From the NCBI GenBank assembly GCA_016177615.1, contig JACOUX010000067.1, positions 1-42,021 of the forward strand: a DNA stretch of 42,021 nt, read 5' to 3'. Below the pieces are notes generated by a model. That model did not search any database, had not been told where the DNA came from, and worked only from the letters and a program-made list of their open reading frames with translations. Below, in pieces: positions 2 to 39,809 of this stretch (the stretch's first letter is position 1; every line of letters begins with the position of its first letter). The stretch comes from Candidatus Woesearchaeota archaeon. GTDB lineage: Archaea; Nanobdellota; Nanobdellia; Woesearchaeales; GW2011-AR4. The translations under genes were made by a program, and so were the position numbers.

Positions 2-3000
2 TTTCTTGGCGGTACAGGTGCAAATGACTCATTGATAAGGGCAGGCAATATGACTGGATGGGCAAGAGTTGATGACGCTTTTGACATTTCCAATTACTCA
101 ACAGAATACGCCTCAACAGGCTACAAGTTAGCTAACTTCACCTCAAACTTGAATTCGCAGAATTCTTCATTATGGAACAGAAGCGTAACTAATGTTTATT
201 TAAGGTTTATTGATGATTTGGTTGGAATAGGAACAATAACGCCAGACAGCAGATTAACTATAAGAGGCACAGACGCAGATGCCAATCTTGCCGGGCAGCC
301 TGGGCTGCTGCACTTGAACATTACAGACTCTTATAATAGAACAGTAACTAATTTCATTACTTTAGACCATAATTTAAACAATCCTGCCAACTCAACTGGA
401 GGCATAGGAATAGGGATATTATTCAGGGCGATTAATAATGATTCTGAGCTGGTTAATGTTTCATTCATTAATGCAACTCTTGTAAATGCGATTAATGGAA
501 GTGAAGCATCTGCTTTATCATTCTATACAAGGGCTGCTAATGGTTTATTGACACCTAAATTAATATTGAATGGAAGCGATGTTCACATTGCTCCTACTGG
601 TGGAAGTGTCGGCATCGGGACTGCTGGGCCTAGCCGACCGCTTGATGTGGCTGGTTCTAGTTTTAATATGGCAATGATTCAGAGTTCAAATACAGGAGGC
701 GTAGCTCTTGAACTGGACGCAACTGCCACGGGCGGCAGAAATTATTTCATTCATTCCACGGCCGATGCGGCCGGACCGGGCGGCGGGAAGTTTATTATTC
801 GGGATACTGATGACAGCAGTGCGTCAAGATTGACGATAGACAGCACAGGCAACGTCGGCATCGGGACGACGGGGCCTCAAAACAAGCTGGAAGTGATTGG
901 AGCAGCAACATTCGCTGGCGGAGTAAATGCTTCTTCCTTGAATGTTACTGGCTTCAGCATTACAGATGACAGCTTGGTAACTGTTGTTGAGTTTGAACAA
1001 GAAAATAAAGAAAAAACGGAGTTCCACAATCAGGTACTTCAGACGGAACCCGCTGCCCTCACGGAACTAAACGATAAAAAATCATATAGATATATAAATT
1101 TTTCGGTTTTAAGTGATGAATTGAGCAAAGCTGGAGTGGCACAATCAGGTACTGCGGCGGATTCAGACTCCGCTGCCCTCACGGGCTTGAGGGTTCGAAA
1201 CTCTGTTTCAAAACCCAAGAGCGAAGTTCCCTCCTCCAGCGCTCAAAAAACATATTCTCTCAAAAAAATCCCAATCAAAGACATCAAGGCAGGCCAGTAT
1301 GCCTTATCCCTTGATGAATCCACAGGAAAATTAGTCCCAAGAAAAGTCAATGCTCTATTAGATCATGGCATTAAGCCGATTTATGAAATGGCAACAGAAG
1401 ATGGAAGAAGCATTAACACAACAGCAGAGCATCCTTATTTGGCAAGACTTTATGAGCGGGAATTGTGCGATAAATATGCCGGCAATGTGTGGAACAAAGA
1501 AGCTGACGAATTTAATGAATATTGCACAAGATGGGTAGAAGTTCAGGGACTAAACGTTAATAATGAAATTGCGACTCCTAAAACAGAAAATGATTTAGGC
1601 AGCGAAAAAAATCAAAATAAAGAAAAAATAAGCGGGTCCCACAACATGGTTATTGCTTCTGTGGAACCATCTGGTCTTCCACGACTAATAACTAATGAGA
1701 ATAATATACTATATAAATCTTTCGGTAATTCTGAATTTTTATCAGAAGGGCAAAGGCAGGGTCGCATAACCTGGTTATTGCGGATGGCTCAAGACCATCT
1801 GGTCTTCCACGACCATGCGGGTTCAAATTCCTTCCAAAAAGGAATGGAATTCCCGCCCCTGCCGTCCAATCCTGATATAACCTTTAAAAAGATAGTTTCC
1901 ATTAAACAGCTTCCGCCCCAGCACGTCTATGACTTAGCGATTGAAGGAACAAGAAACTTTATAGCCAATGATATAGTGGCGCATAATACTTACCTGGCAA
2001 CTAGTTCTGGGAATGTTGGCATTGGGACAATTGGACCGGACAGCACATTGCACATCAACAGCTCTTCTGTTACAGGCGCTCTGAAAATAACAAACGGCTC
2101 TGGCTCTAACTTTACTGCTTTCTTTGTGAATGGCAGTTCCGGCAGAGTCGGCATTGGATTGACTAATCCAAGTGATGCATTGCATGCTGTAGGGGCATTC
2201 AGGCTTTCATCATTTACCAGCAATAATCAAATTGCGCGGATTACGAAGTCCGGAGTAGACACAGGGCAAATCAGTCTGCAGAATGGCACATCAACCCAGG
2301 TGCTTATTGATACAGGCGGGGATTCATATTTTAATGGTGGAAATGTGGGAATCGGCCAAACAAGCCCAAATGTTACATTAGGAGTTTCTGGGAGGGCGAA
2401 CATTTCAGGATATTTGGAAGTTGGCGGCGGCTTAAATGTAAGCAATGGAATGAACGTTATTTCAGGCAACGTCGGCATCGGGACGACGAGTCCGGCGAAT
2501 AAACTCTGGGTGCAAGATACGAATACGCATATCGCTACTTTTTATCGCGCTGCCTCTGGACTGACCTATGCGCAATGGGTCAATGATGCGACAGGAACTA
2601 CGACTAATGATGGGCTATTGGTTGGCGTAGACGGAAGTGGTTTGGCGTTGATTAATAATCAAGAAAATACCGCGCTATACTTTTCTACAAATAATGCTGA
2701 ACGAGTTAGGATTGATAATACCGGCAACGTCGGCATTGGAACTGTAGCTCCAAACACGAAGCTGCATGTTAATATGGGCAGCGGCAGCGGGGTTGGCATA
2801 ACTGTCAATAGCTCCGGCCCGACAAATGTGGTTGGCTTGTTGGTATCAGGGGTAAACAATGCTGAAAATGCACAAATAAACGCGTCTTTAGGAACTGCTG
2901 GAGGCGCATTGGACGTAGGATTTGTAGGAACTGAAACATCTCATGGCTTCACACTAAGGACGAAAAATGCGAATAGAGTTCTCATAGATTCGGCAGGCAA

Positions 3001-6000
3001 TGTCGGCATCAACACGACAGTTCCTGCAAACACTTTAACAGTTCAGGGGACTTTGAATGTTACATCCAATCCAACAAGAAGTGGAGATTTGTTTGTAGCA
3101 AGTTCAGGCAACGTCGGCATCAACACGACAAATCCCGGAACTGCCCTGCAAGTAGTCGGAAGTATTCGTGTTAGTGAGCTGGATATTGTACCAAAACAAG
3201 TCGATTGGATAGCAAACACAGATTCTCGCATTTATACTTCGGCTGAGCCTGGCACTTATCCTTTTGCTGACACAGGAAACCTGATTCTTCAGCCACGGAC
3301 AGACAGCGCGCGGGATATTGTCTTTGCCTTGAATCTTGGCAGTACCACACCTGCTCCAGCTATGGTTATAAAAAGAACCACCGGCAACGTCGGCATCGGG
3401 ACGACGAGTCCGGGAAGGCTTTTAGAGGTTGCTGGCTCAATTAATGGCACACAGCTGAACATATCTGGAGCAGTCAATTTGGCTTATAACTCAGGCAATG
3501 TCGGCATTGGCACAACTTCGCCAAATCAAACGCTTGATGTCCAGGGCAGCGCCAATTTCGCCAATCAGATAATCGGCAATAATAACTTGACCATAAGGAA
3601 CGGAGCAAGCGCCTTCAGCAATACCAAAAGCGTTGTCAATCTCTACAAAAATATCGGCTCGGATGCCGCTAACACATGGTCCACTGGGGCGAGCGGCGGG
3701 AGAGCAAGAGACAGCTTTGTCAGTGTTCTTTACAACGGCAAGATATATTTCTGGGGAGGGCGAGATGGCAACTCCGCAGCCAACGCTCTCAATAGCACAG
3801 AAATCTACGATATAGCCACTGACTCATGGTCTAATGGCACAGCAAGCGCAACAAGCAAGACATATGCCGCTGGCGTAGCCTACAATGACGCTATATATAC
3901 CTGGGGCGGATCAGATATCAAGGGAAACGAAACCAGTCAGGTTATGATTTACAATATTACCAAAAACGTATGGACCAACGGCACAGCAGGAGGAAGAACA
4001 AGAGTATCTCATACTGCTACTCTTTACAACGGCAAGATATATTTCTGGGGAGGGGTTCTCAACGGCTCCATTTTGAACACCATGGATGTTTATGATATCA
4101 ACAGCAATTCCTGGTCTAATGGCACCTCAGGAGGAGCGGCAAGATATAGTCATGTTGCTGCTCTTTACAACAACAAGATTTATTTCTGGGGAGGGTGGAC
4201 AGCTACCTTTGATAGTACTAATCTTACTGATATCTACGACATCGCTAATGACTCGTGGTCTAATGGCACGCCAGGGGGCCTTGCAAGATTTTCATCTGCC
4301 TCTGCGCTGTACAACGGCAAGCTCTATATCTTTGGCGGAAGCGATGATGCAACAATTGATGCCGTAAACAGGCTTGATATTTACGATATTGCCAAGGATT
4401 CCTGGTCCCAAGGTGTTTCAGGAGGCACTGCCAGGGATTTTCTATACTCTACTGCACCTGTTTACAACGGCAGGATCTATTTTTGGGGCGGAATAAACAC
4501 AGCGGAAAACAGGATCAATAGCATGGACATCTTAGACATTGGCGATCGGCAAAGCTATTTGTCATTTTACGAGAATGGGGAAAACATGCTTTCGTTCAGG
4601 ACAGGCTCGAATATAAATCTTGATTATGGATTGCTAAGCATTACAGGAGGCAATCTTGGCGTAGGAACAACACATCCTAAAGCCAGGCTTCATGTCAATG
4701 ACTCTTCTGCAGTTGGATCACTTCTTGTTACAAATGTTTCAGGCACAGCAATATTTTTTGTTAATGGGAGCTCAGGCAAGGTCGGCATCGGGACGACGAG
4801 TCCGACCCAGAAACTTGAGATTAGCGGCGGGTCAGTGCTAATTCCAACTGGAGCAAAGTACCTGATTGGTGGCACGACCGAAGGCATCAGGGGCAGCGTG
4901 AACAGCTTTGTAGCTATCCAAACCAATGCTGCTGATCGCATCGTGGCGAATTATGGAGGTGCAATCCAGTTTCTAGATGAGTCTGCTAACGTGTTAATGC
5001 AAATCCAAAGCACCGGCAAGGTCGGCATCGGGGCAACATCTCCAAACGTCACATTCCATGTAAGCGGTGCTGCAAATGTATCTGGAAGATTAAGCTATGG
5101 GACTTTGGCAGCTAACTCTCCTCATTTCTTTGAAACCATAGGCAAGGCAGAGCCATTGTGCATAAAATCAAAAATTGGAAAATATGTGGGGTGCATGATT
5201 GATGAGAATTTTGAGTTTGTTTGCAGGATTGACGACAGGTGCAGCAGGAAGTATTTAGATGCAAGCCTTTCTGAGGAGATAGAGCATTTAAATAGAGAAA
5301 CACCAAATAATTTAGTTAATGAAAATAATTTAACAAATAATGCAGCCCCGGTAAGGGACAGCACTGACACAAGCGCAAGTGCTCCCAATGCCGAAATTGC
5401 CCAAATTAATGATAACGATTACAAAAAGCAAAAAATAGAAAGATTAAGCAAGCTCAAAAGCGGCATTAAAGAAAAGGAGGTAACTGTAAAGCAGGCAATT
5501 GTACAGTTGAAGCTTGAGCAATTAGGGCATGTTGACATTGATGCTATCGAAAGCGAGGAGGATGCAGTAGGATACACATCCAAAACTAAAAAAGCCAGAG
5601 AAGAGCAAGGCAATGTCGGCATAAACACAACAGTTCCTGCAAGAACATTAACTGTACAGGGAACATTAAATGTATCTAACCCAGGAACAAGCGGGCAATT
5701 ATTTATGGATTCGTCAGGCAGCGTCGGCATCGGCACGACGACACCAACTGAGGTTTTAAGCGTTAATGGCAATGTAAGCATAGAAGGCACCAACTGCCGC
5801 GATTCCGGTGGCTCTGCAACCTGCAACAACTTCGTTGACTTTGCGGAATTATTTGACTCCAGCGAACCAGTAGAAAGCGGCGACATAGTCATAATCTCAT
5901 TCGAAAACCCCCCTTCCAAGCCAACCGCAGGTTTCTCCCCCCAAAACCCTCAATCCACGAGCAAATCTTTCCAGAATTCGGTTGATGGCAAGTTCCAAAA

Positions 6001-6589
6001 CTCGGTTGATGCAAAATTCCAGAATCCGGTTGACAGCTCTTCCAAAATCCGGTTGACAGCTTTACAGAATCCGGTTGATGCAAGCCAAAATAATACCCAA
6101 AAAACCCCATTAATTTACAATACTGAAAGTAATGCCAATAATAATGAAAATTCAATTGAAAACCCTGCTCCAGATTTTGCCTCAGCATTCAAAGTCAAAA
6201 AATCCGCCAAACCCTATGACAGCAAAGTAATAGGAATTGTCTCAACCCAGCCAGCCATAGTAATAGAGGGCGGAAGAATAGTAGCCATGGGCGGCTGGAA
6301 GGGTCAAAACAACACTTTAAAGCCTGCAATCGCTTTAGCCGGAAGAGTCCCAGTAAAAGTCACAAATGAAAACGGGCCAATTCAAAAAGGCGATTTATTG
6401 ACAACCTCAAGCAAAGCTGGCTATGGGATGAAATTCTCGCTTTTAGACCCGGCAAACGCTAAAGATTTCAGCGAATTAAAAATGATGCTCAAGGAAAATG
6501 AGAACAGGAGAAACGCAGTGCTGGGAAAATCATTGGAAAACTGCGACCAGCAAGAATGCAAAATACTTGCATTTGTCTCAATGCAATAA
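2..6589 (+). CDS. Giant NVGIG-repeat surface protein with Hint domain, kelch repeats and tailspike-like C-terminus (5' partial)
   Basis: The frame is open at the left edge, so the TTG at 32 is probably not the start. The protein carries about twenty GNVGIGTTSP-type repeats, as in phage tail fibres and large archaeal or CPR surface proteins. A Hint (intein-like) domain occupies about 971-1987. Six kelch-like repeats with the pattern YNGKIYFWGG and DSWSNGT span about 3650-4540. A low-complexity, charged linker covers 5290-5600. The C-terminal domain (about 5780-6589; NCRDSGGSATCNNF, then AGRVPVKV and GDLLTTSSKAGYGMK) resembles the autoproteolytic Peptidase_G2/IMC domain of tailspikes; that assignment is from memory of the family. 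The role is inferred to be a cell-surface adhesin or fibre. Oddities: two tRNA genes lie within the frame, repeat codons are GC-rich compared with the surroundings, and partial C-terminal copies follow downstream. Confidence 0.85.
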   Translation, partial: FLGGTGANDSLIRAGNMTGWARVDDAFDISNYSTEYASTGYKLANFTSNLNSQNSSLWNRSVTNVYLRFIDDLVGIGTITPDSRLTIRGTDADANLAGQPGLLHLNITDSYNRTVTNFITLDHNLNNPANSTGGIGIGILFRAINNDSELVNVSFINATLVNAINGSEASALSFYTRAANGLLTPKLILNGSDVHIAPTGGSVGIGTAGPSRPLDVAGSSFNMAMIQSSNTGGVALELDATATGGRNYFIHSTADAAGPGGGKFIIRDTDDSSASRLTIDSTGNVGIGTTGPQNKLEVIGAATFAGGVNASSLNVTGFSITDDSLVTVVEFEQENKEKTEFHNQVLQTEPAALTELNDKKSYRYINFSVLSDELSKAGVAQSGTAADSDSAALTGLRVRNSVSKPKSEVPSSSAQKTYSLKKIPIKDIKAGQYALSLDESTGKLVPRKVNALLDHGIKPIYEMATEDGRSINTTAEHPYLARLYERELCDKYAGNVWNKEADEFNEYCTRWVEVQGLNVNNEIATPKTENDLGSEKNQNKEKISGSHNMVIASVEPSGLPRLITNENNILYKSFGNSEFLSEGQRQGRITWLLRMAQDHLVFHDHAGSNSFQKGMEFPPLPSNPDITFKKIVSIKQLPPQHVYDLAIEGTRNFIANDIVAHNTYLATSSGNVGIGTIGPDSTLHINSSSVTGALKITNGSGSNFTAFFVNGSSGRVGIGLTNPSDALHAVGAFRLSSFTSNNQIARITKSGVDTGQISLQNGTSTQVLIDTGGDSYFNGGNVGIGQTSPNVTLGVSGRANISGYLEVGGGLNVSNGMNVISGNVGIGTTSPANKLWVQDTNTHIATFYRAASGLTYAQWVNDATGTTTNDGLLVGVDGSGLALINNQENTALYFSTNNAERVRIDNTGNVGIGTVAPNTKLHVNMGSGSGVGITVNSSGPTNVVGLLVSGVNNAENAQINASLGTAGGALDVGFVGTETSHGFTLRTKNANRVLIDSAGNVGINTTVPANTLTVQGTLNVTSNPTRSGDLFVASSGNVGINTTNPGTALQVVGSIRVSELDIVPKQVDWIANTDSRIYTSAEPGTYPFADTGNLILQPRTDSARDIVFALNLGSTTPAPAMVIKRTTGNVGIGTTSPGRLLEVAGSINGTQLNISGAVNLAYNSGNVGIGTTSPNQTLDVQGSANFANQIIGNNNLTIRNGASAFSNTKSVVNLYKNIGSDAANTWSTGASGGRARDSFVSVLYNGKIYFWGGRDGNSAANALNSTEIYDIATDSWSNGTASATSKTYAAGVAYNDAIYTWGGSDIKGNETSQVMIYNITKNVWTNGTAGGRTRVSHTATLYNGKIYFWGGVLNGSILNTMDVYDINSNSWSNGTSGGAARYSHVAALYNNKIYFWGGWTATFDSTNLTDIYDIANDSWSNGTPGGLARFSSASALYNGKLYIFGGSDDATIDAVNRLDIYDIAKDSWSQGVSGGTARDFLYSTAPVYNGRIYFWGGINTAENRINSMDILDIGDRQSYLSFYENGENMLSFRTGSNINLDYGLLSITGGNLGVGTTHPKARLHVNDSSAVGSLLVTNVSGTAIFFVNGSSGKVGIGTTSPTQKLEISGGSVLIPTGAKYLIGGTTEGIRGSVNSFVAIQTNAADRIVANYGGAIQFLDESANVLMQIQSTGKVGIGATSPNVTFHVSGAANVSGRLSYGTLAANSPHFFETIGKAEPLCIKSKIGKYVGCMIDENFEFVCRIDDRCSRKYLDASLSEEIEHLNRETPNNLVNENNLTNNAAPVRDSTDTSASAPNAEIAQINDNDYKKQKIERLSKLKSGIKEKEVTVKQAIVQLKLEQLGHVDIDAIESEEDAVGYTSKTKKAREEQGNVGINTTVPARTLTVQGTLNVSNPGTSGQLFMDSSGSVGIGTTTPTEVLSVNGNVSIEGTNCRDSGGSATCNNFVDFAELFDSSEPVESGDIVIISFENPPSKPTAGFSPQNPQSTSKSFQNSVDGKFQNSVDAKFQNPVDSSSKIRLTALQNPVDASQNNTQKTPLIYNTESNANNNENSIENPAPDFASAFKVKKSAKPYDSKVIGIVSTQPAIVIEGGRIVAMGGWKGQNNTLKPAIALAGRVPVKVTNENGPIQKGDLLTTSSKAGYGMKFSLLDPANAKDFSELKMMLKENENRRNAVLGKSLENCDQQECKILAFVSMQ
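1017..1064 (+). pseudogene. Degenerate tRNA-Leu(CAG)-like 5' fragment
   Basis: GGAGT, CACAATCAGGTACT and CGCTGCCCTCACGG match the acceptor, D-arm and variable arm of the intact tRNA-Leu(CAG) that begins 113 bases downstream. The anticodon stem-loop is deleted and no T-arm follows. It is also translated as part of the giant ORF. Confidence 0.65.
1091..1107 (+). promoter_or_regulatory. Promoter of tRNA-Leu(CAG)
   Basis: TATATAAAT followed by TTTCGGT, ending 22 bases before the tRNA. The same TATAAA...TTTCGGT pair precedes the other two tRNA-Leu genes, which suggests a shared promoter copied with the tRNA unit. Confidence 0.55.
1130..1240 (+). tRNA. tRNA-Leu(CAG) with T-loop intron, inside the giant ORF
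   Basis: The acceptor stem GCTGGAG (1130-1136) pairs perfectly with CTCCAGC (1234-1240). The anticodon stem GCGGA/TCCGC encloses the loop TTCAGAC with anticodon CAG at 1164-1166. The class II variable arm is GCCC/GGGC (1175-1186). The T-stem GAGGG (1189-1193) pairs with CCCTC (1229-1233). Between TTCGAA (1194-1199) and the last T-loop base (T1228) lies a 28-nt intron. The discriminator is G1241, unusual for tRNA-Leu; CCA is not encoded. The gene reads through in frame as part of the giant protein, between the putative Hint nucleophile and block A. Confidence 0.85.
1200..1227 (+). other. BHB intron in the T-loop of tRNA-Leu(CAG)
   Basis: A four-pair central helix UUCG (1194-1197) with CGAA (1222-1225) is flanked by three-base bulges AAA (1198-1200) and GUU (1226-1228). 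The outer helix is the T-stem and the inner helix is CUCU/AGAG. Cutting after the second base of each bulge joins TTCGAA to T, restoring a normal seven-base T-loop. Confidence 0.85.
1634..1685 (+). pseudogene. Degenerate tRNA-Leu(CAA)-like 5' fragment
   Basis: GGGTC, TGGTTATTGC and CCATCTGGTCTTCCACGAC match the acceptor end, D-arm, anticodon-stem 3' side and variable arm of the intact tRNA-Leu(CAA) that starts 121 bases further on. The anticodon loop region is altered and the T-arm and 3' acceptor are absent. It is translated within the giant ORF. Confidence 0.65.
1712..1726 (+). promoter_or_regulatory. Promoter of tRNA-Leu(CAA)
   Basis: TATAAATCTTTCGGT, 28 bases upstream of the tRNA. It is the same TATAAA...TTTCGGT pair seen at the CAG and UAA loci. 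Confidence 0.55.
1755..1863 (+). tRNA. tRNA-Leu(CAA) with T-loop intron, inside the giant ORF
   Basis: The acceptor stem GGCAGGG (1755-1761) pairs perfectly with CCCTGCC (1857-1863). The D-stem is GCA/TGC. The anticodon stem GATGG/CCATC encloses CTCAAGA with anticodon CAA at 1790-1792. The long variable arm is TGGTC/GACCA (1800-1815). The T-stem GCGGG (1817-1821) pairs with CCCGC (1852-1856) once a 23-nt insert is removed. The discriminator is G1864. It lies in frame within the Hint domain just before its C-terminal blocks. Confidence 0.85.
1828..1850 (+). other. Intron in the T-loop of tRNA-Leu(CAA)
   Basis: The central helix UUCA (1822-1825) pairs with UGGA (1845-1848), with one G-U pair. 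It is flanked by bulges AAU (1826-1828) and AUU (1849-1851). Splicing restores the T-loop TTCAAAT closed by GCGGG/CCCGC. The inner part forms UUCC/GGAA but is less regular than in the CAG intron, so this is a relaxed BHB. Confidence 0.75.
3650..4545 (+). repeat. Six kelch-like repeats within the giant gene
   Basis: Each unit of about 48-50 residues has an YNGKIYFWGG-type strand, an IYDI strand and a Trp in D-SWSNGT. Six units suggest one beta-propeller, here placed between blocks of NVGIG repeats. Units are also similar at DNA level, for example tacaacggcaagatatattt at about 3732 and 4024. Confidence 0.75.
5341..5401 (+). repeat. Inverted GC-rich repeat pair in linker of giant gene
   Basis: A forward arm cggtaagggacagcact (5349-5365) and a reverse arm gctcccaatgccgaaattgc (from 5381) are related as inverted copies. 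The reverse arm is a variant of the reverse complement of the NVGIG-coding DNA core. Similar pairs occur at 7200-7257 and 10881-10966 in unrelated genes. Confidence 0.6.
5971..6078 (+). repeat. Tandem 22-24 bp repeats, five units
   Basis: The core (a/c)cca(g/a)aa(t/c)(t/c)cggttga recurs with cores at 5973, 5997, 6021, 6044 and 6066 (spacings 24, 24, 23, 22). The first three and the fifth units encode FQN(S/P)VD. The fourth is read in another frame as SKIRLTA, and the frame is regained because 23+22 is a multiple of three. The repeat is therefore kept as DNA rather than as peptide. Confidence 0.75.
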
Positions 6590-6590
6590 A

Positions 6591-7406
6591 ATGGCCAAAC
6601 AAGAAATAAAATGCCCAATATGCGGCAAGGAAGCTGTAAAGTTTGGCATAAGAAAAAATAAGCTGCAAGCCATACAGAGATATAAATGCGGCTCCTGCAA
6701 AAAATCTTTCACTTTGCACCAAACTAAAAATATTACTTACCCTATTCAAACAATCCTCAAATCCATCTCAATATATAATCTTGGCTTTAATTTAAAGCAG
6801 ACGCAGGAAAAGCTCGAAAGCTCAGAAAAAATCAAAATCTCAATATCAACACTAAACAGCTGGATAAATGAGTACAAAAACATCTGCGCTTACAGCAAGC
6901 TAAGAGCCCAAGCATTAAAGCTCTTCAATCCAAAAAACATAATAAAAAAGCTCGAATTAAGCCACATCCAGCCATATACTTTTAAGTATCACAAAGCCAA
7001 ATTATATTTATTGTTCCACAGCGTAAAATATAACAACGAATACCACAACATTGCGCACTTTTACGAGCCATTAAAGAAGTACCTGGAAAAGATTGGAACA
7101 GATAAATTCCCGCATCACATATTCACATACCAAAAGGAAAGCAGCCGTCCCGTTGCCGCAATTGCCAATAAAATAAACAATACAATAAAAGATAATGATG
7201 CAACATCGGTAAGGGACAACGCCGGAAATAGCGCAAGTGGTCCCGATGCCGAGGTTGATAAAGATAATTTAATCAATAATGAAAATAAACTAATAAACTC
7301 CCAACAAAGGGCATCGCAAATAAAATTCACCCATATGAAAATAAAAATCAGCAGTAAAAATAATTTTGCATGCAAGCTTGCCAAGCTCGCATGCAAAAAT
7401 ATTTAA
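6591..7406 (+). CDS. Zinc-ribbon/HTH protein, C-terminally truncated sibling of 10310-11458
   Basis: It encodes 271 aa from the ATG one base after the giant gene's stop. The N-terminus has a four-Cys zinc ribbon, CPICG and CGSCKKSF (residues about 5-43), of the kind that opens IS1-type transposases and related DNA-binding proteins. An HTH-like stretch follows (TLNSWINEYKNIC). The core NPKNIIKKLELSHIQPY is nearly identical to the gene at 10310. Here the protein stops after SSKNNFACKLAKLACKNI, exactly where the sibling enters its PD-(D/E)XK nuclease domain, so it is a truncation. The end coincides with an imperfect palindrome rich in GCATGC (7369-7395). The linker holds the inverted GC-rich repeat at 7200-7257. 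Function unknown; probably a nuclease-less DNA-binding remnant. Confidence 0.7.
   Translation: MAKQEIKCPICGKEAVKFGIRKNKLQAIQRYKCGSCKKSFTLHQTKNITYPIQTILKSISIYNLGFNLKQTQEKLESSEKIKISISTLNSWINEYKNICAYSKLRAQALKLFNPKNIIKKLELSHIQPYTFKYHKAKLYLLFHSVKYNNEYHNIAHFYEPLKKYLEKIGTDKFPHHIFTYQKESSRPVAAIANKINNTIKDNDATSVRDNAGNSASGPDAEVDKDNLINNENKLINSQQRASQIKFTHMKIKISSKNNFACKLAKLACKNI
7200..7257 (+). repeat. Inverted GC-rich repeat pair in zinc-ribbon gene linker
   Basis: The forward arm gcaacatcggtaagggac (7200-7217) and the reverse arm gtcccgatgccgaggttg (7240-7257) are inverted copies of one sequence. The reverse arm is close to the reverse complement of the GGCAACGTCGGCATCGGGAC core of the giant gene. It is translated as ATSVRDN...GPDAEV, in a different frame from NVGIG. 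Confidence 0.7.
7369..7395 (+). repeat. Imperfect palindrome at truncation point
   Basis: gcatgcaagcttg and caagctcgcatgc form an inverted repeat at the point where the zinc-ribbon ORF loses homology to its longer sibling. It could be a recombination scar or a terminator hairpin. Confidence 0.4.
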
Positions 7407-7428: not shown

Positions 7429-7881
7429 ATGAAATTATACATAGAAACGTCTGTCCCGAATTTTTTATTTAGCACTCAAGATTCAGTCGAAAGGCAAACA
7501 ATTACTAAGAATTTTTTTAAAAATATTGTTCCACAGCATGAGGCTTATGTATCAGATATTTATATTTTAGAAGCTGAAGATGCACCGCCAGAAAAACAAA
7601 AGCAGTTAAAATCTATAATAACGCGATACAATCTTAAAATATTGGAAAAAACCAAAAATGTAGAAGAATTAGCTAAAAAATATCAAGAGGAATTAAAATT
7701 GCCAGAAAGATATTTTAATGACCTGTTGCATATTGCAGTTGCGACAATTCATGAAATGGATGTTATCGTTAGTTGGAACCTTAAGCATATTGTAAAATTA
7801 AAAACAATTCTAACTGTAGAAAAAATAAACCAAAAATTTAAATACAAAAGGATACATATATGCTCACCGGAGGAAATATAA
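7429..7881 (+). CDS. PIN-domain protein (VapC-like toxin candidate)
   Basis: It encodes 150 aa. The ATG at 7429 is chosen because MKLYIETSVPNFLF is the usual PIN opening and GAGG lies upstream. Acidic positions typical of PIN nucleases are visible: E5 in YIETS, the E/D cluster in ILEAEDA (about residue 45), NDLLHIAVA (about residue 100) and the terminal SWNLKHIV. PIN proteins of this form are RNases, usually toxins. The stop is immediately followed by a 42-aa gene with a strong Shine-Dalgarno sequence, the expected layout of a toxin with its partner. Substrate unknown. Confidence 0.75.
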   Translation: MKLYIETSVPNFLFSTQDSVERQTITKNFFKNIVPQHEAYVSDIYILEAEDAPPEKQKQLKSIITRYNLKILEKTKNVEELAKKYQEELKLPERYFNDLLHIAVATIHEMDVIVSWNLKHIVKLKTILTVEKINQKFKYKRIHICSPEEI

Positions 7882-8019: not shown

Positions 8020-8667
8020 TTGATTATAGACGGCAATTTCGGCAATCCCCCTATTATATTAACAATATCGGCATCGGGGGCAAAAGGTGCAATGGCGCAC
8101 TGGGAACAATCGTTATTATTATCAAAAGACGGCAACGTCGGCATCGGGACGACGACACCAACTGAGACATTAAGCGTTAATGGCAATGTAAGCATTGAAG
8201 GTACGAATTGCCGCGATTCCGGTGGCTCTGCAACCTGCAACAACTTCGTGGATATAGCCGAGCTTTTCCCTGCCTCAGAAGCTGTTGATTCCGGTGATGT
8301 TGTGGTAGTTGATTTCATAAACAAAGGAAAAGTAAGGAAAAGCCAAAAAGAATATGAAAAGGCAGTTGTTGGAATTGTCTCCACGCAGCCGGCAATTGTG
8401 ATAGAAGGGGGCAGAATAATAGCCATGGGCAATTTTAAAGGCCAAAACAACACTTTAAAGCCAGCTGTAGCATTGGCAGGCCGTGTTCCGGTCAAAGCAA
8501 GCGAAGAAAACGGCAGAATTATGGCAGGTGACTTGCTCACAACAAGCAGCAAAAAAGGCTATGCGATGAAATGCAACAACGAAATAAAGTGCATAAATTC
8601 AATAGTCGGAATTGCCTTGGATGATAAAAAAGAAGGTGAAGAAACTGTGCTGGTGATGGTGAAATGA
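8020..8667 (+). pseudogene. C-terminal cassette 1 of the giant surface protein
   Basis: From 8131 the sequence matches the giant gene from 5717 onwards (GNVGIGTTTPTE, NCRDSGGSATCNNFVD, AGRVPVK, GDLLTTSSKKGYAMK) through to a stop. DNA identity over the first 130 bases is very high by eye. The homology starts exactly at the ggcaacgtcggcatcgggac core. Upstream is only a short open stretch with a possible TTG start at 8020 and no signal peptide. The final residues VMVK and gtgatggtgaaatga are shared with the other cassettes but not with the giant gene. It is either a silent recombination donor or a displaced old tail. Confidence 0.75.
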
Positions 8668-8686: not shown

Positions 8687-8961
8687 TTACCTTAAATCTC
8701 TAATTCTAATATGTCCAAATTCAACGACTACGAATTTGCCTTTTGCCTTATCAAGGACATCTTTTACTATTTCAAATCGCTTTACTGGGTCAGATGCCGC
8801 AGTTCTGATTAAGATTATTCCTTGTGAAGATTTGCCCAGCTTGAATACCAGCTCGCCGAAATCCTTATCCGCTGTTATTAAAATCCGCTTTTCATCGTTC
8901 GCAAAAGACTCACAAGACCGGAGAATTTCTTACCTGCACTCTCATCTACTAGGAATCGCAT
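8687..8961 (-). pseudogene. Broken DUF5615-type PIN-like toxin
   Basis: The minus strand opens with ATG and MRFLVDESAGKKF, the normal start of DUF5615 (Mut7-C-like PIN) toxins, then runs into a stop. A second frame continues with SFANDEKRILITADKDFGELVF and runs to RIRDLR at the expected end. The middle of the family, which normally links these parts, is missing, so an internal deletion with frame change is inferred. It overlaps the DUF433 gene by 20 bases, the normal antitoxin-toxin order. Confidence 0.65.
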
Positions 8962-9205
8962 GCTTGCCATTTATGATTTCAGGAAAGATTTCTTCACCCT
9001 CAGCAAGCATTCCTGCATACAAGAGGGCAGCTTTGATATCATTTTCAGTTATCCTTGGGAAATCTTCAAGAATCTCTTGGAATGTCCATCCTTCTGCGAT
9101 TCTGTTAACTATTTCATAAACAGGTACCCTGGTGCCGCGAATTACTGGCTTGCCTACCATAACTTTTGGGTTCACTACAATTCTCTTCATGAAATCCTTT
9201 TCCAT
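8942..9205 (-). CDS. DUF433 antitoxin
   Basis: It encodes 87 aa with the DUF433 signature: RIVVNPKVMVGKPVIRGTRV followed by VYEIVNRIAEGWTFQEILEDFP and an HTH-like ITENDIKAAL. DUF433 proteins are small HTH antitoxins paired with DUF5615 PIN-like toxins. The partner follows directly on the same strand but is broken (8687-8961), so this antitoxin appears orphaned. It interrupts the surface-protein cassettes and runs opposite to them, consistent with insertion. Confidence 0.8.
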   Translation of the reverse strand: MEKDFMKRIVVNPKVMVGKPVIRGTRVPVYEIVNRIAEGWTFQEILEDFPRITENDIKAALLYAGMLAEGEEIFPEIINGKHAIPSR

Positions 9206-9264: not shown

Positions 9265-9442
9265 TGCAAAAGTAACAGATAAAAGCGGAATGATAAAGGC
9301 AGGAGAATTAATCACAACATCAAGCAAGAAAGGATATGGGATGAAGTGCAAAAAGCCGATTGACTGTGTAGGTGCAATCATAGGAGTTGCAATGGAAAAC
9401 CAAAAAGCAAAAGAAGATGTTATTATGGTGATGGTGAAATGA
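9265..9442 (+). pseudogene. C-terminal cassette 2 of the giant surface protein (short)
   Basis: KVTDKSGMIKAGELITTSSKKGYGMKC...GVAMENQKAKEDVIMVMVK aligns with the last 60 residues of the cassettes at 8667 and 13035 and with the same region of the giant protein. It ends in the same gtgatggtgaaatga. There is no start of its own. Its left edge meets the promoter side of the DUF433 gene, so the toxin-antitoxin pair probably replaced the rest. Confidence 0.75.
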
Positions 9443-9444
9443 GC

Positions 9445-9828
9445 TCATACAGAATCGATGCGAATCTCCCTATGTTTTTCATTAAAAGTAATTATGAACT
9501 TGTCAAAAACAGTTTCTCTCCCAAGAAGATTGAAGGAAGTTACAAGTTCGTCAGAAAAGGCGGCTTTACAAATTATTTCCATGCCTCCAATCATCATTTT
9601 AACTTCATGCACATAGCCGGAAAGCTTGGCAGAGGCTCCTTGAAAAATTCTTTTTTCGCCGGATTCTATATCAATTCCAATCTGCCTGCCAACGCTGCTG
9701 TTGAAAATTGAAATGGAGGCGCCAGAATCAACTATAGCAGAAGTGTTAACTTCCCCTCCTTCTTTGGAGAGTTTAATGGGGATTATTGGATAATAAAAAC
9801 CTCTAAAGACCTGATAAGAAAACTTCAT
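9445..9828 (-). CDS. Retropepsin-like aspartic protease domain protein
   Basis: It encodes 127 aa. The flap-family signature is present: AIVDSGASISIF (catalytic D-S/T-G at about residues 34-36) and a closing NLLGRETVFDKFIITFN. That is one retropepsin-like lobe, which would act as a dimer. No signal peptide is seen. Its start overlaps the stop of the upstream 68-aa gene by four bases (ATGA), so they are co-translated. A processing or toxin-like role is inference. It lies opposite to, and between, the surface-protein cassettes. Confidence 0.75.
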   Translation of the reverse strand: MKFSYQVFRGFYYPIIPIKLSKEGGEVNTSAIVDSGASISIFNSSVGRQIGIDIESGEKRIFQGASAKLSGYVHEVKMMIGGMEIICKAAFSDELVTSFNLLGRETVFDKFIITFNEKHREIRIDSV

Positions 9829-10031
9829 AAAATGCTCATCTCTTCATCTTTGCGAGGCATCTTCATAACCATTACTTCCTTTAGGGACATGCCTTTGCTC
9901 TTAAGAGATGACTCTACTTCCGATAGAGATTCTCCAGAAGCAATAATTCCTTCATCTGTAACAGCAATCCATCTGCCACTGCACTTTTCAGCTTCTTCCG
10001 GATGCGACGATAGCCATTCAAGTTCATTCAT
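9825..10031 (-). CDS. Small DUF5678-like protein
   Basis: It encodes 68 aa: MNELEWLSSHPEEAEKCSGRWIAVTDEGIIASGESLSEV. The pattern of W-A-V followed by G-I-ASG and a helix matches DUF5678 proteins as remembered. It forms a two-gene operon with the retropepsin-like protein, overlapping by four bases, and could be its substrate, inhibitor or partner. Confidence 0.6.
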   Translation of the reverse strand: MNELEWLSSHPEEAEKCSGRWIAVTDEGIIASGESLSEVESSLKSKGMSLKEVMVMKMPRKDEEMSIL

Positions 10032-10103
10032 GTTTTACACCTTAATGCTCTTTCTTTCTAAATCTCCTAACTATTTAAACTTTTTGATGCATTGTCATAT
10101 TAT

Positions 10104-10139
10104 GAAAATGGAATGATAAAGAAAGGAGAATTGTTACCA
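10104..10139 (+). pseudogene. C-terminal cassette relic 3
   Basis: ENGMIKKGELLP in frame matches ENGIIKKGDLLT of the cassette at 12876 and the equivalent part of the giant protein. The match then ends abruptly. Its left edge falls near the same codon as cassette 2, next to the promoter side of the DUF5678 gene. Confidence 0.6.
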
Positions 10140-10201
10140 ACTCTCCAAAATCCCTTATTTCGCCTCTGCTGAACAAGAATAGCCCAATTCAGCCTTTTCT
10201 C

Positions 10202-10264
10202 TAGCCAAATCCGTCAGTCATATAGCTAGCCATTCTTGTCAGTTTTCATAGCCAAACTTGTCAG
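10202..10264 (+). repeat. Three 16-bp iterons upstream of the nuclease gene
   Basis: tagccaaatccgtcag (10202-10217), tagccattcttgtcag (10227-10242) and tagccaaacttgtcag (10249-10264) are direct repeats spaced 25 and 22 bases, ending just before the TATA box of the zinc-ribbon nuclease gene. They are candidate binding sites for that protein or its regulator. Confidence 0.65.
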
Positions 10265-10273
10265 CTATTTTAG

Positions 10274-10286
10274 AAACTTTTAAATA
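10274..10286 (+). promoter_or_regulatory. TATA box of the nuclease gene
   Basis: ctTTTAAATAAgt lies about 25-30 bases before the ATG at 10310, so the transcript is probably leaderless. Confidence 0.5.
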
Positions 10287-10309
10287 AGTAATAACACATC
10301 TGCTTTCCA

Positions 10310-11458
10310 ATGAAGACCGATAATCCAAAAAGTATAACCTGCCCTTACTGCCAATCTTCAAACACCAAAAAGGAAGGCAAGCGAAAAAACAGGCTCCAAA
10401 TAATCCAGAAATACAAATGCAAAGGCTGCAGCAAAGCATTTACATCAAGCCCATTAAAGAGCAAATCATATCCAATAAAAGCAATATTAAATTCCATCCT
10501 GCATTACAATCTTGGCTACACCCAAAAAGGAGTTTCAAGAATAATAGCACGAAAACACAAACTGCAAGTCCCGCAAAAAACCATAAGCAACTGGATCAAT
10601 GAATACAAACAAATCTGCACTTTTGCTAATATAAGAAAGCAAGCCATAAAATTGCACAATCCAAAAAACATCATAAAAAAGCTGGAATTAAATCACATCC
10701 AGCCTTACATCTTCAAATACCACAAAGCAAAACTACACTTATTGTTCCACAGCATTCTATACAACAACCAGTTCCACAACATTGCTCATTTCTACGAGCC
10801 GTTAAAATCATACATAGAAAAAATATCAACAAAAGATTTTCCGCATCATATATTTACATACGATAAGGCAAAAGCCGGTGGTCCCGATGCCGACGTTGCC
10901 AAATTTAATAATGAATCAATTATAAAATCAAATAAAAATCTTGCAACATCGGTAGGGGACAGCACTAATAAAAGGGCATCACAAATAAAATTCAGCCACT
11001 TAAAAATAAAAATCAGCAGCAAAAATAATTTAGCATGCAAACTTGCCAGGCTGGCTTTAAATCTCGCGCTTACAAATAAAGAAAGGCATCAAGTTATCCA
11101 AAACTTTTTCCTGATAAACGATTCAACAACCATAGCAGTAGAAGTTCCCGTTTACTTGACAAACTGGGATGCCGGCTATTACAGAAACCAAAAGGGATTC
11201 ATTTTTCCGTTGAATCATTACACAACTCCAATAACGGGGCATATCGATATTCTGCAGATAAGAAACGGATTAATTCACATTTTGGATTACAAGCCTTACG
11301 CCAAAAACGAAAATCCAGCAGAGCAGCTAACAATTTACGCTTTAGCATTATCAAGAAAATTAAACCTTCCATTGTATTATTTCAAATGCGCATGGTTTGA
11401 CGAAAATAATTACTGCGAGTTCTTTCCTTTGCATGCAGTTTACAAAAAAGAAAGTTAG
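10310..11458 (+). CDS. Zinc-ribbon/HTH protein with PD-(D/E)XK nuclease domain
   Basis: It encodes 382 aa. Residues about 8-45 form a zinc ribbon (CPYCQSSNTKK, then CKGCSKAF), followed by an HTH-like TISNWINEYKQIC and a conserved core NPKNIIKKLELNHIQPY. Residues about 185-225 are a variable linker with the inverted GC-rich repeats. The C-terminal domain (about 250-382) shows the RecB/Cas4-type nuclease motifs: GHIDIL, IHILDYKPY (D-x-K core) and QLTIYALAL. A sequence-targeted DNA nuclease is inferred from these parts. The combination resembles a transposase DNA-binding half joined to a homing-type nuclease. A truncated sibling lacking the nuclease lies at 6591-7406. Three iterons and a TATA box stand upstream. 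Confidence 0.75.
   Translation: MKTDNPKSITCPYCQSSNTKKEGKRKNRLQIIQKYKCKGCSKAFTSSPLKSKSYPIKAILNSILHYNLGYTQKGVSRIIARKHKLQVPQKTISNWINEYKQICTFANIRKQAIKLHNPKNIIKKLELNHIQPYIFKYHKAKLHLLFHSILYNNQFHNIAHFYEPLKSYIEKISTKDFPHHIFTYDKAKAGGPDADVAKFNNESIIKSNKNLATSVGDSTNKRASQIKFSHLKIKISSKNNLACKLARLALNLALTNKERHQVIQNFFLINDSTTIAVEVPVYLTNWDAGYYRNQKGFIFPLNHYTTPITGHIDILQIRNGLIHILDYKPYAKNENPAEQLTIYALALSRKLNLPLYYFKCAWFDENNYCEFFPLHAVYKKES
10881..10966 (+). repeat. Inverted GC-rich repeats in nuclease gene linker, opposite order
   Basis: gtcccgatgccgacgttgcc (10881-10900) is the exact 20-base reverse complement of the NVGIG-coding core of the giant gene (for example at 8131 and 3383). A forward variant, gcaacatcggtaggggac, follows at 10943-10960. 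The arms are in the reverse order compared with the pairs at 5349 and 7200. Confidence 0.75.
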
Positions 11459-11488: not shown

Positions 11489-11866
11489 ATGAAAGAAGAG
11501 GTCAATAAATGGATAGGGAAAGCAAAAAGCGACTTAAAGCATGCTAAATCTTCTTTAAGAAACGGGGAATTTGATTGGGCGCAAGTAGCTTCCCAGCAGG
11601 CGGCAGAAAAGGCATTAAAGGCAGTGTGTCTGCATAAAGGAATTGGATTAATTAAAGTGCATGACCTTACAATTCTTGGCAGAAAACTTAATGCTCCGAA
11701 TGATGTGCTGGAAAACTGCGGATTGTTAAATCCATTCTACACTGCTTCAAGGTATCCTGATGTTCAGGAAAGGACAAATAAAAAGCTGGAAGAAATTGCT
11801 GCCAAAGATGCTATTAAAGCAGCAGAAAAGGTTATAAGATGGTGCAAGGAGCAAATAAAAATATAG
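11489..11866 (+). CDS. HEPN-domain protein
   Basis: It encodes 125 aa with the standard HEPN layout: an N-terminal helix WIGKAKSDLKHAKSSL, then WAQVASQQAAEKALKAVCL, then a helix after VHDLTIL, and a last helix ending WCKEQ. HEPN proteins paired with MNT nucleotidyltransferases are toxin-type RNases, or inactive versions, controlled by AMPylation. It overlaps the MNT gene by 28 bases. The pair sits between the nuclease gene and cassette 4. Confidence 0.85.
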   Translation: MKEEVNKWIGKAKSDLKHAKSSLRNGEFDWAQVASQQAAEKALKAVCLHKGIGLIKVHDLTILGRKLNAPNDVLENCGLLNPFYTASRYPDVQERTNKKLEEIAAKDAIKAAEKVIRWCKEQIKI

Positions 11867-12159
11867 CGCTAGTTAAAAAATTCAAGAGAAATATTAACAA
11901 AATTATTAAGATAGATAAGCTTATATTTTACGGTTCTAGGGCAAAAGGCAATTTCCACAGGTACAGCGATTTTGATTTGTTAATTGTATCGCCGGACTTT
12001 AAAGAAATTCCCTGGTATAAGCGTCCAGTTAAGTTATATCTAATGTGGAAAGAGGACTATCCATTGGAAATCTTATGCTATACGCCTGATGAAGTTAAAA
12101 AGATGGTTGATAGAATAGGTATAGTCTCGGAAGCATATAAAAAAGGTATAGAAATTTAA
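11839..12159 (+). CDS. MNT-type nucleotidyltransferase (HEPN partner)
   Basis: It encodes 106 aa. The nucleotidyltransferase signature is intact: FYGSRAKGNFHRYSDFDLLIV (G-S-x9-11-D-x-D at about residues 32-48), with a further Asp/Glu region at DYPLEILCY. MNT proteins of this minimal size AMPylate and inactivate the paired HEPN protein in characterised systems. It is co-transcribed with, and overlaps, the HEPN gene. Confidence 0.85.
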   Translation: MVQGANKNIALVKKFKRNINKIIKIDKLIFYGSRAKGNFHRYSDFDLLIVSPDFKEIPWYKRPVKLYLMWKEDYPLEILCYTPDEVKKMVDRIGIVSEAYKKGIEI

Positions 12160-12213
12160 AGCAATCTCGGTAAAGTTATCATCAGGAAACACGGGTACAA
12201 GAGGGCTTAATAA

Positions 12214-13035
12214 AAAACTGGCAACGTCGGCATCGGAACCGCAGCTCCAAATACAAAACTGCATATTGATAAGGGCGGCGGCAGCGGGATTGCCATAACT
12301 GTCAACGGCTCAGGCCCGACAAATATGGTTGGCATGTTGGTCTCAGGAAAAAACAATGCTGAAACATCTGAAATAAACATATCTTTAGGAACATCAGGAG
12401 GCGTATTGGACCACGGATACATAGGAAGTGAAACAGCTCATGCCTTCACCCTAAGGACTAAAACTGCGAACAGGGTTACCATAGATTCGGATGGCAAAGT
12501 CGGCATCAACGACACAACTCCTTCCTACACATTGGACATAGCCGGCAACGTCCAAATCACCGGAGGCGGAGGAAACACCTGCGCAGACGGGCAAGGAGAA
12601 GCAACCTGCAACAATTTCGTTGATTATGCTGAATTATATCCATCTTCAGAACTAGTTGAATCAGGAGATTTGGTAATCATTGACTTTCAAAATGAAGGCA
12701 AGGTAAAGAAATCAAATAAACCATATGACAAGTCAGTTGCAGAAATCGTCTCAACAAAGCCAGCTGTTTTGATAGAAGGAAGCACCATGATATTCATGAA
12801 CAACGGCTTCAAATTAAACCAAACCAAGCCGGCTATCGCCTTGGCAGGAAGAGTTCCAACCAAGGTTACTGATGAAAATGGAATTATTAAGAAAGGGGAC
12901 TTATTAACAACATCAAGCAAAAAAGGCTATGGAATGAAATGCACTGACGATTCAAAATGCGCCAATGCAGCTGTAGGAATATCTTTGCAGAATCAAAAAT
13001 CAAAAGAGGATTTGATTAGGGTGATGGTGAAATGA
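12214..13035 (+). pseudogene. C-terminal cassette 4 of the giant surface protein (long)
   Basis: The open frame begins right after a TAA at 12211, with GNVGIGTAAPNTKLH encoded from 12220 and no credible start codon; the first ATG is at 12325. Residues up to TANRV match the internal giant-gene region 2723-2980. The rest then matches the extreme C-terminus (CNNFVDYAELYPSSE, AGRVPTKV, GDLLTTSSKKGYGMK, VMVK). It is thus a collapsed copy joining two distant parts. The left edge again falls at the GGCAACGTCGGCATCGG core. Confidence 0.75.
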
Positions 13036-39665: not shown

Positions 39666-39809
39666 ATGAAGAAGCCAATAAGCGCTACAATTGATGAAGA
39701 TCTTATCTCATGGATTGAGAAAGAAGTAGGTGAAAATACAAGATACAGGAACAAGTCCCATCTTATTGAAACAGCGCTGGAGATCCTAAAAAAAGAGGCG
39801 AAAAAATAA
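39666..39809 (+). CDS. Ribbon-helix-helix regulator, 47 aa
   Basis: It encodes 47 aa: MKKPISATIDEDLISWIEKEV then YRNKSHLIETALEILKKEAKK. The short beta strand with I-A-T-I-D and two helices is a textbook RHH (CopG/Arc-type) domain. It likely represses its own operon through the palindromes upstream. Its stop overlaps the start of the secretion ATPase gene (TAATG), so it may control production of the pilus-like machine. Confidence 0.85.
   Translation: MKKPISATIDEDLISWIEKEVGENTRYRNKSHLIETALEILKKEAKK

Follow-up and report, generated by a model that had tools for sequence, protein, structure and literature searches.

What is a gene for a DNA-binding nuclease doing among the displaced 3' ends of a giant surface-fibre gene? 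The question is raised by a 42,021-nucleotide stretch of a Candidatus Woesearchaeota archaeon (contig JACOUX010000067.1), the whole of which is called the window here. An earlier note had singled out positions 10202-11458 as coding for a transposase-like DNA-binding region joined to a nuclease, possibly part of a homing or cassette-switching system. The gene, annotated from the ORF list, profiles and a structural model, lies at 10310-11458 on the forward strand and encodes 382 amino acids; the other 108 bp of that stretch (10202-10309) are upstream DNA outside the ORF. Residues 11-46 form a zinc ribbon of the IS1/IS1595 type (NF050000, 30.4 bits, cut-off 28), and residues 11-136 match the IS1 transposase model NF033558 (2.6e-8, model positions 1-109 of 199). 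As a full-length IS1 transposase the protein scores 34 bits against a cut-off of 100, with the second half of the model unmatched; the curated score is missed because the catalytic half of the transposase is absent. Thus the N-terminal zinc ribbon and HTH are those of IS1/IS1595 transposases, whereas the place of the catalytic domain has been taken by a PD-(D/E)XK nuclease. The profile PF12705 (PDDEXK_1) covers residues 274-350 (1.1e-4, just over the gathering score) and was matched in 21 of 22 homologues, so that a profile search does detect the nuclease fold. Across the 22 aligned homologues, E278, D313, D326, K328, Q339 and Y343 are invariant and make up the expected core (GHID313, D326-x-K328 and Q339xxxY343). 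The four Fe-S cysteines of Cas4 were looked for in the same alignment, and no cysteine is invariant beyond C11, C14, C37 and C40 of the zinc ribbon. The AlphaFold2 model of the protein, built with 20 homologues, has a pLDDT of 81.9 and a pTM of 0.79, and the folds that it matches best, at Z 6-8, belong to RecB-type nucleases (the DinG exonuclease domain at 7.9, SSO0001 at 7.2, and also MGME1, AddAB and RecB). These middling values agree with motif and profile on a predicted RecB/Cas4-like PD-(D/E)XK fold, and the nearest PADLOC models are Cas4-like defence nucleases. Standalone relatives of ~220 aa in the same taxonomic order begin at about residue 125 of the 382-aa protein, which places the nuclease domain at roughly 125-382. 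Profiles, invariant motifs and fold matches together bear out the proposed fusion: the ORF encodes an IS1-type zinc ribbon and HTH joined to a RecB/Cas4-like PD-(D/E)XK nuclease.

Three 16-bp iterons had been claimed in front of the gene, and the sequence confirms them on the forward strand at 10202-10264: TAGCCAAATCCGTCAG (10202-10217), TAGCCATTCTTGTCAG (10227-10242) and TAGCCAAACTTGTCAG (10249-10264), spaced 25 and 22 bp apart. Related AAA(A/C)YYCGTYA repeats, at a spacing of 20-25 bp, precede the nuclease gene in the window and in the loci L083, L086, L088 and L095; they are less clear in L096, L099 and L100, and nuclease genes packed behind another ORF are without them. The iterons show no resemblance to the DNA word discussed below, and they are likelier than that word to be the predicted binding sites of the zinc ribbon/HTH.

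The surroundings of the gene are dominated by the fibre. The giant NVGIG/kelch surface-fibre gene (2-6589, forward strand) has its 5' end outside the window; a profile search found kelch and intein models only, and no RHS/YD-repeat core. Within it, the 20-24 bp word GGCAACGTCGGCATCGGGAC encodes G-N-V-G-I-G. The current 3' tip of the gene lies at about 5717-6589, and the gene is the parent of four pieces of fibre 3' ends that follow downstream in the same direction. Immediately behind it there is a sibling of the nuclease gene, with a PIN-domain module directly behind that (7429-7881, start approximate, forward strand; PF01850, 1.1e-4, marginally under the gathering cut-off). The first orphan tip (tip b, 8032-8667) contains the word at 8131 (24/24) and matches 5717-5908 at 77% and 6191-6434 at 69%. 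A DUF433 module (8942-9205, reverse strand; PF04255, 8.7e-25) separates it from tip c (9266-9442), which comprises the last 58 codons only. An aspartyl-protease-like gene (9445-9828; PF13650, 7.7e-7) and a 68-aa ORF from the ORF list (9825-10031), both on the reverse strand, come before tip d, a 40-bp remnant at 10102-10141 that matches 12872-12911 at 85%. Then come the nuclease gene and, also on the forward strand, a pair of a HEPN toxin-like gene (11489-11866; PF05168, 1e-28) and an MNT nucleotidyltransferase antitoxin-like gene (11839-12159; PF01909, 9.1e-10). The last tip, e (12220-13035), starts at the word (20/24) and matches 2717-3036 at 80% and tip b at 66%. The locus is a C-terminal DISPLACEMENT array: a live gene, then toxin-antitoxin modules each closed by an orphan 3' end. 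Five repeats of 22-24 bp (FQNSVD-like) are found in the giant gene at 5969-6085, and their changing period shifts the reading frame along the repeat array. A 29-bp leader, 86% identical in two species, lies ~30-60 bp upstream of orphan tips in the window (12161-12189) and in L212 (complement of 7582-7610).

The sibling (ORF 6498-7406, homology 6594-7406, forward strand) retains the zinc ribbon, the HTH and the first part of the nuclease domain. It is 52-56% identical to residues 7-253 of the nuclease protein and ends before the catalytic motifs; its missing 3' end is not present elsewhere in the window. The earlier note had described it as a nuclease-less sibling behind the giant gene. It is indeed there and devoid of catalytic motifs, but it looks like a 3'-truncated copy rather than a distinct type.

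The nuclease gene itself contains the word. An exact copy of GGCAACGTCGGCATCGGGAC (20/20 as reverse complement) lies at 10881-10900, antisense to the gene, as had been claimed for the inverted repeat core. Here it is read as GPDADVA and not as NVGIG, and therefore its presence is no demand of the NVGIG protein repeat; by our own estimate, the chance of an exact 20-bp copy over 42 kb is ~1e-7. The copy sits in a linker insert at 10866-10969 (forward strand, residues about 186-220) with inverted word copies, which adds ~30 residues absent from orthologues. Around the insert the linker differs in length and sequence in every homologue, and in close relatives, which have no insert, it is short. 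In the AlphaFold2 model the insert is disordered (residues 186-218, pLDDT < 50), and as DNA it has a hairpin z of -3.1. Related inserts occur in the linkers of the truncated sibling, which has a 17/20 antisense word at 7240-7259, and of the giant gene. A whole-genome DNA search located such inserts on the window's contig only, so they are local and do not belong to a dispersed repeat family. An RPE-like palindromic mobile element spread through linkers genome-wide was also considered and rejected, since the insert is confined to one contig and its arms are copies of the word.

Pooling the fibre genes of 32 loci, we found the exact codons AAC GTC GGC ATC GGG in 34 of 126 NVGIG peptides, when 0.09 were expected from each gene's own codon usage, an excess of about 380-fold; the preference extends to the flanking codons GGC and ACG. 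Judging from this codon usage, the word is conserved as DNA, the signal being its sameness across phyla that is seen when genes are pooled. In the giant gene of the window taken alone, conservation beyond codon usage is weak (z 1.7). The 21-mer GGCAACGTCGGCATCGGGACG is found exactly in at least 120 viral stretches of IMG/VR (loci L225-L304), and none of the 130 viral words examined there lies outside an NVGIG frame. Among 112 archaeal and bacterial words, four fall outside a long NVGIG frame, all in or beside nuclease-family genes: two antisense in the nuclease genes of the window, one at the head of an orphan tip and one fused to a nuclease 3' remnant. The word is common where the nuclease is absent, and therefore its conservation cannot be owed to the nuclease alone. 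A literature search for the word or for "NVGIGT" returned no report among the papers that it covers.

Junctions and lesions also fall at the word. Orphan heads begin there in ~8 of 14 cases, and in L083, L049 and L086 (twice in the last) the word begins 2-10 nt past the stop of the toxin or antitoxin gene in front of it; from the spacing of the motif, 3% of junctions would be expected to fall at a word. Three independent frame-breaking lesions affect words, two in L049 and one, later duplicated, in L086; all are at positions 11-14 of the word and all in nuclease loci, in orphan tips that are free to drift. The lesions include a 35-bp insert that contains a short palindrome (CTTTTAATGAATTAAAAG), is bordered by CAT and interrupts the word in two of the L086 orphan tips (6029-6100 and 6720-6791). 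This clustering of junctions and lesions would fit cutting at the repeat core with spread by repair, as the earlier note had suggested.

The array of the window has counterparts in other genomes. In the window and in L084, L086, L049, L106 and L083 the nuclease has orphan fibre tips downstream of it. An arrangement of the Rhs type, with an intact gene, codirectional dissociated tips and genes between them, was found in the window, in L084, L086 and L049, and in L106, a WWE3 bacterium. In L084 a tip of 30 residues is repeated three times downstream, and in L086 five tips surround the nuclease, a DUF-type pair, an IS110 transposase with RelE, and HicAB (module names assigned by eye from the translations). 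When the DNA before the focal gene is compared with that after it, only nuclease loci are flanked by fibre tips on both sides, and 0 of 20 control loci built on standalone nucleases (12) or zinc-ribbon-only genes (8). Orphan tips accompany 6 of 11 nuclease-linked fibre loci versus 2 of 16 that lack the nuclease (p 0.027, in a small sample that was not fully blind). In five loci (L090, L096, L104, L166 and L167) it is the 3' end of the nuclease gene that is repeated behind modules, sometimes 4 nt past the end of the reading frame of an AbiE-type gene; in the controls (0/20) the 3' end of the focal gene is never duplicated. The upstream gene of an array is therefore either a fibre or, in these five loci, the nuclease itself. 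The cassette-switching half of the earlier proposal is thus well supported, with displaced fibre 3' ends punctuating toxin-antitoxin modules in the window and in other genomes.

The full fusion is patchily distributed, with homologues in DPANN archaea (Woesearchaeota, Nanoarchaeota and Aenigmatarchaeota), Omnitrophota, CPR bacteria (Shapirobacteria and WWE3) and single MAGs of other phyla. Bacteria and archaea are mixed in the family tree, whose support is modest, and contigs of foreign origin may be present in MAG bins. Many copies are truncated. A scan of IMG/VR revealed no viral relative of the nuclease although the word is present there, and a viral origin was discarded on this account. 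Of 38 nuclease loci, 14 have an NVGIG gene no farther than 6 kb away, with all motif copies on the strand of the nuclease; an NVGIG gene is as close in 1 of the 12 standalone relatives and in none of the 8 zinc-ribbon-only genes. The counts use the strict NVGIG motif within 6 kb, with many flanks cut by contig ends, and Fisher's test gives p 0.007 against the 20 pooled controls and 0.058, which is not significant, against the 12 standalone relatives alone. The siblings are thus linked to the repeats (14/38 loci versus 1/20 controls), but they do not always adjoin NVGIG genes, as the earlier note had wondered: some nuclease loci are behind other surface genes (S74 and other large surface proteins) or behind none. 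Frequently the nuclease is the first gene behind the fibre (L086, L095, L096, L099, L101, L106 and L107), and the sibling of the window is placed likewise. The genome of the window carries NVGIG genes in three places, on contigs 57, 61 and 49, and nuclease copies and an array only on contig 57; the two NVGIG places without nuclease have no array. About 60 standalone nucleases of ~220 aa belong to the same family, usually one per genome, without linkage to fibre genes. Two other families were seen beside the nuclease. One is a S23/Avd-type four-helix-bundle-like gene with no Pfam match (L103 482-2840, L106 2314-2754, L170, L173 and L174), seen in CPR and some archaeal loci; the second, a small family, accompanies the nuclease in L103 and L051.

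Several of these loci contain inteins. The giant gene of the window has a whole intein at 1265-1990, before TYLATSSGNVGIG; inteins also precede TYI/TYL in the fibre genes of L094 and L103, and another is in a surface gene of L105. At the end of the window (39809-42019) lies an open-ended ORF for a type IV pilus/VirB11-like ATPase, which is split by an intein-like insertion. In L103 (Shapirobacteria), the nuclease gene and two further ORFs lie between intein halves in the NVGIG gene (Intein_splicing profile positions 21-71 and 77-155). This is the only locus with the organization of the fractured genes that were reportedly described by Dassa and colleagues in 2009, in which a split intein surrounds a free-standing endonuclease, a Vsr-like EDxHD enzyme. 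The L103 halves resemble them in flanking a nuclease gene on both sides, whereas here the enzyme is a PD-(D/E)XK fusion and most members are outside inteins; in the window the intein is whole and does not surround the nuclease.

The closest known arrangement is that of Rhs genes, where an intact gene precedes a series of dissociated tips that point the same way and have other genes between them, and where the old tip is proposed to be pushed downstream by single crossover with a circular DNA that holds core, tip and genes (Jackson et al. 2009, PMC2935791). Arrays like that of the window share the order of gene and then dissociated tips. They differ in that the gene is an archaeal NVGIG/kelch fibre, in that the shared junction stretch can be a word of 20-24 bp instead of a long core, and in the presence within the array of a dedicated nuclease gene, whose own 3' end is also used. 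For displacement of the Rhs type a model exists, and we know of no dedicated enzyme. Short conserved DNA in fibre genes where segments are exchanged is familiar from the sfx repeats of shufflons and the glycine-rich motifs of T-even gp38. The word here is a different one, common to archaea, bacteria and viruses and without an assigned recombinase. The named homing families include PD-(D/E)XK (PMC6083498), and free-standing homing nuclease genes are found at boundaries of exchange (PMC10448857). The family described here looks similarly selfish, patchy and decaying beside a conserved target gene, i.e., it has the position and the distribution of a free-standing homing endonuclease; it differs by its IS1-type zinc ribbon/HTH, RecB/Cas4-like core, iterons and toxin-antitoxin cargo, and by cleavage that is presumed here.

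Taken together, the sequence comparisons suggest that the nuclease may help to swap fibre tips by cutting at a word common to archaeal, bacterial and viral fibre genes. We tentatively regard it, at slightly below an even chance, as a homing-type enzyme that promotes Rhs-like displacement of fibre tips at the word. The zinc ribbon/HTH would bind the upstream iterons and control or position the nuclease protein, which, alone or with a host partner, would break a recipient fibre gene at its word. Repair from a donor, probably a circular DNA made up of word, tip and modules as proposed for Rhs, would put the donor's tip on the fibre, carry in the nuclease and the toxin-antitoxin modules and push the old tip downstream. 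The copies would decay afterwards, as the sibling has. Several observations count against a homing enzyme. Domains of the RecB/Cas4 type are often exonucleases; the nuclease gene of the window holds an exact word, an expected target of a word-cutting enzyme; some orphan tips do not start at the word (those at 9266 and 10102, that of L084 and tip 3 of L086); and L212 and L220 have arrays without a visible nuclease. The wide occurrence of the word away from the nuclease, its lack of likeness to the iterons and the freedom of the lesion-bearing tips to drift also weigh against this reading. According to a more sweeping idea, archaeal, bacterial and viral fibre genes would all conceal in their NVGIG repeat code one universal site of recombination, GGCAACGTCGGCATCGGGACGACG, kept by use and not by protein selection, which zinc-ribbon PD-(D/E)XK proteins would open, driving cross-domain traffic of tips with toxin-antitoxin cargo; in this general form we consider it unlikely.

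The same loci can be explained with a nuclease that takes no part in the exchange. It would be a passenger, a mobile toxin or anti-phage module run by its own zinc-ribbon/HTH and iterons, while arrays would grow by host homologous recombination through the word and the tips. The nuclease usually shares the array with toxin-antitoxin modules (HEPN-MNT, PIN, RelE, HicA, AbiE and Fic), its iterons look autoregulatory and its nearest defence models are Cas4-like; the wide occurrence of the word without the nuclease, and the arrays that lack it, also speak for this explanation. Yet no dedicated antitoxin partner is conserved beside the nuclease, it is often the first gene behind the fibre, its own 3' end serves as array punctuation, and it has been found inside a split intein, so that we rate a passenger as somewhat unlikely. 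The split intein of L103 and the inteins in the fibre genes of the window and L094 and in the surface gene of L105 would rather fit a free-standing nuclease that serves inteins of NVGIG genes in trans, as in fractured genes, with the other copies as escapees. This appears quite improbable to us, given that an intein is present in only 4 of ~38 loci, that the one in the window is 8 kb from the nuclease and that most nuclease genes are at 3' ends and not in inteins. We give even less credit to a transcription factor derived from a transposase, with a nuclease fold that has lost its cutting activity and with control over the neighboring genes through the iterons. The zinc ribbon/HTH, the iterons and the missing transposase domain would agree with it, but all catalytic residues are invariant in 22 homologues while the linker varies freely, and the horizontal patchiness and the decay of the family are not what one expects of a host regulator.

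If the homing-type reading is true, the displacement arrays of host-associated archaea and CPR bacteria would have a candidate enzyme and a candidate DNA site. The surface fibres of these microbes probably decide their attachment partners, and the identical codons of the word across phyla raise the question of why a protein repeat should be conserved as DNA.
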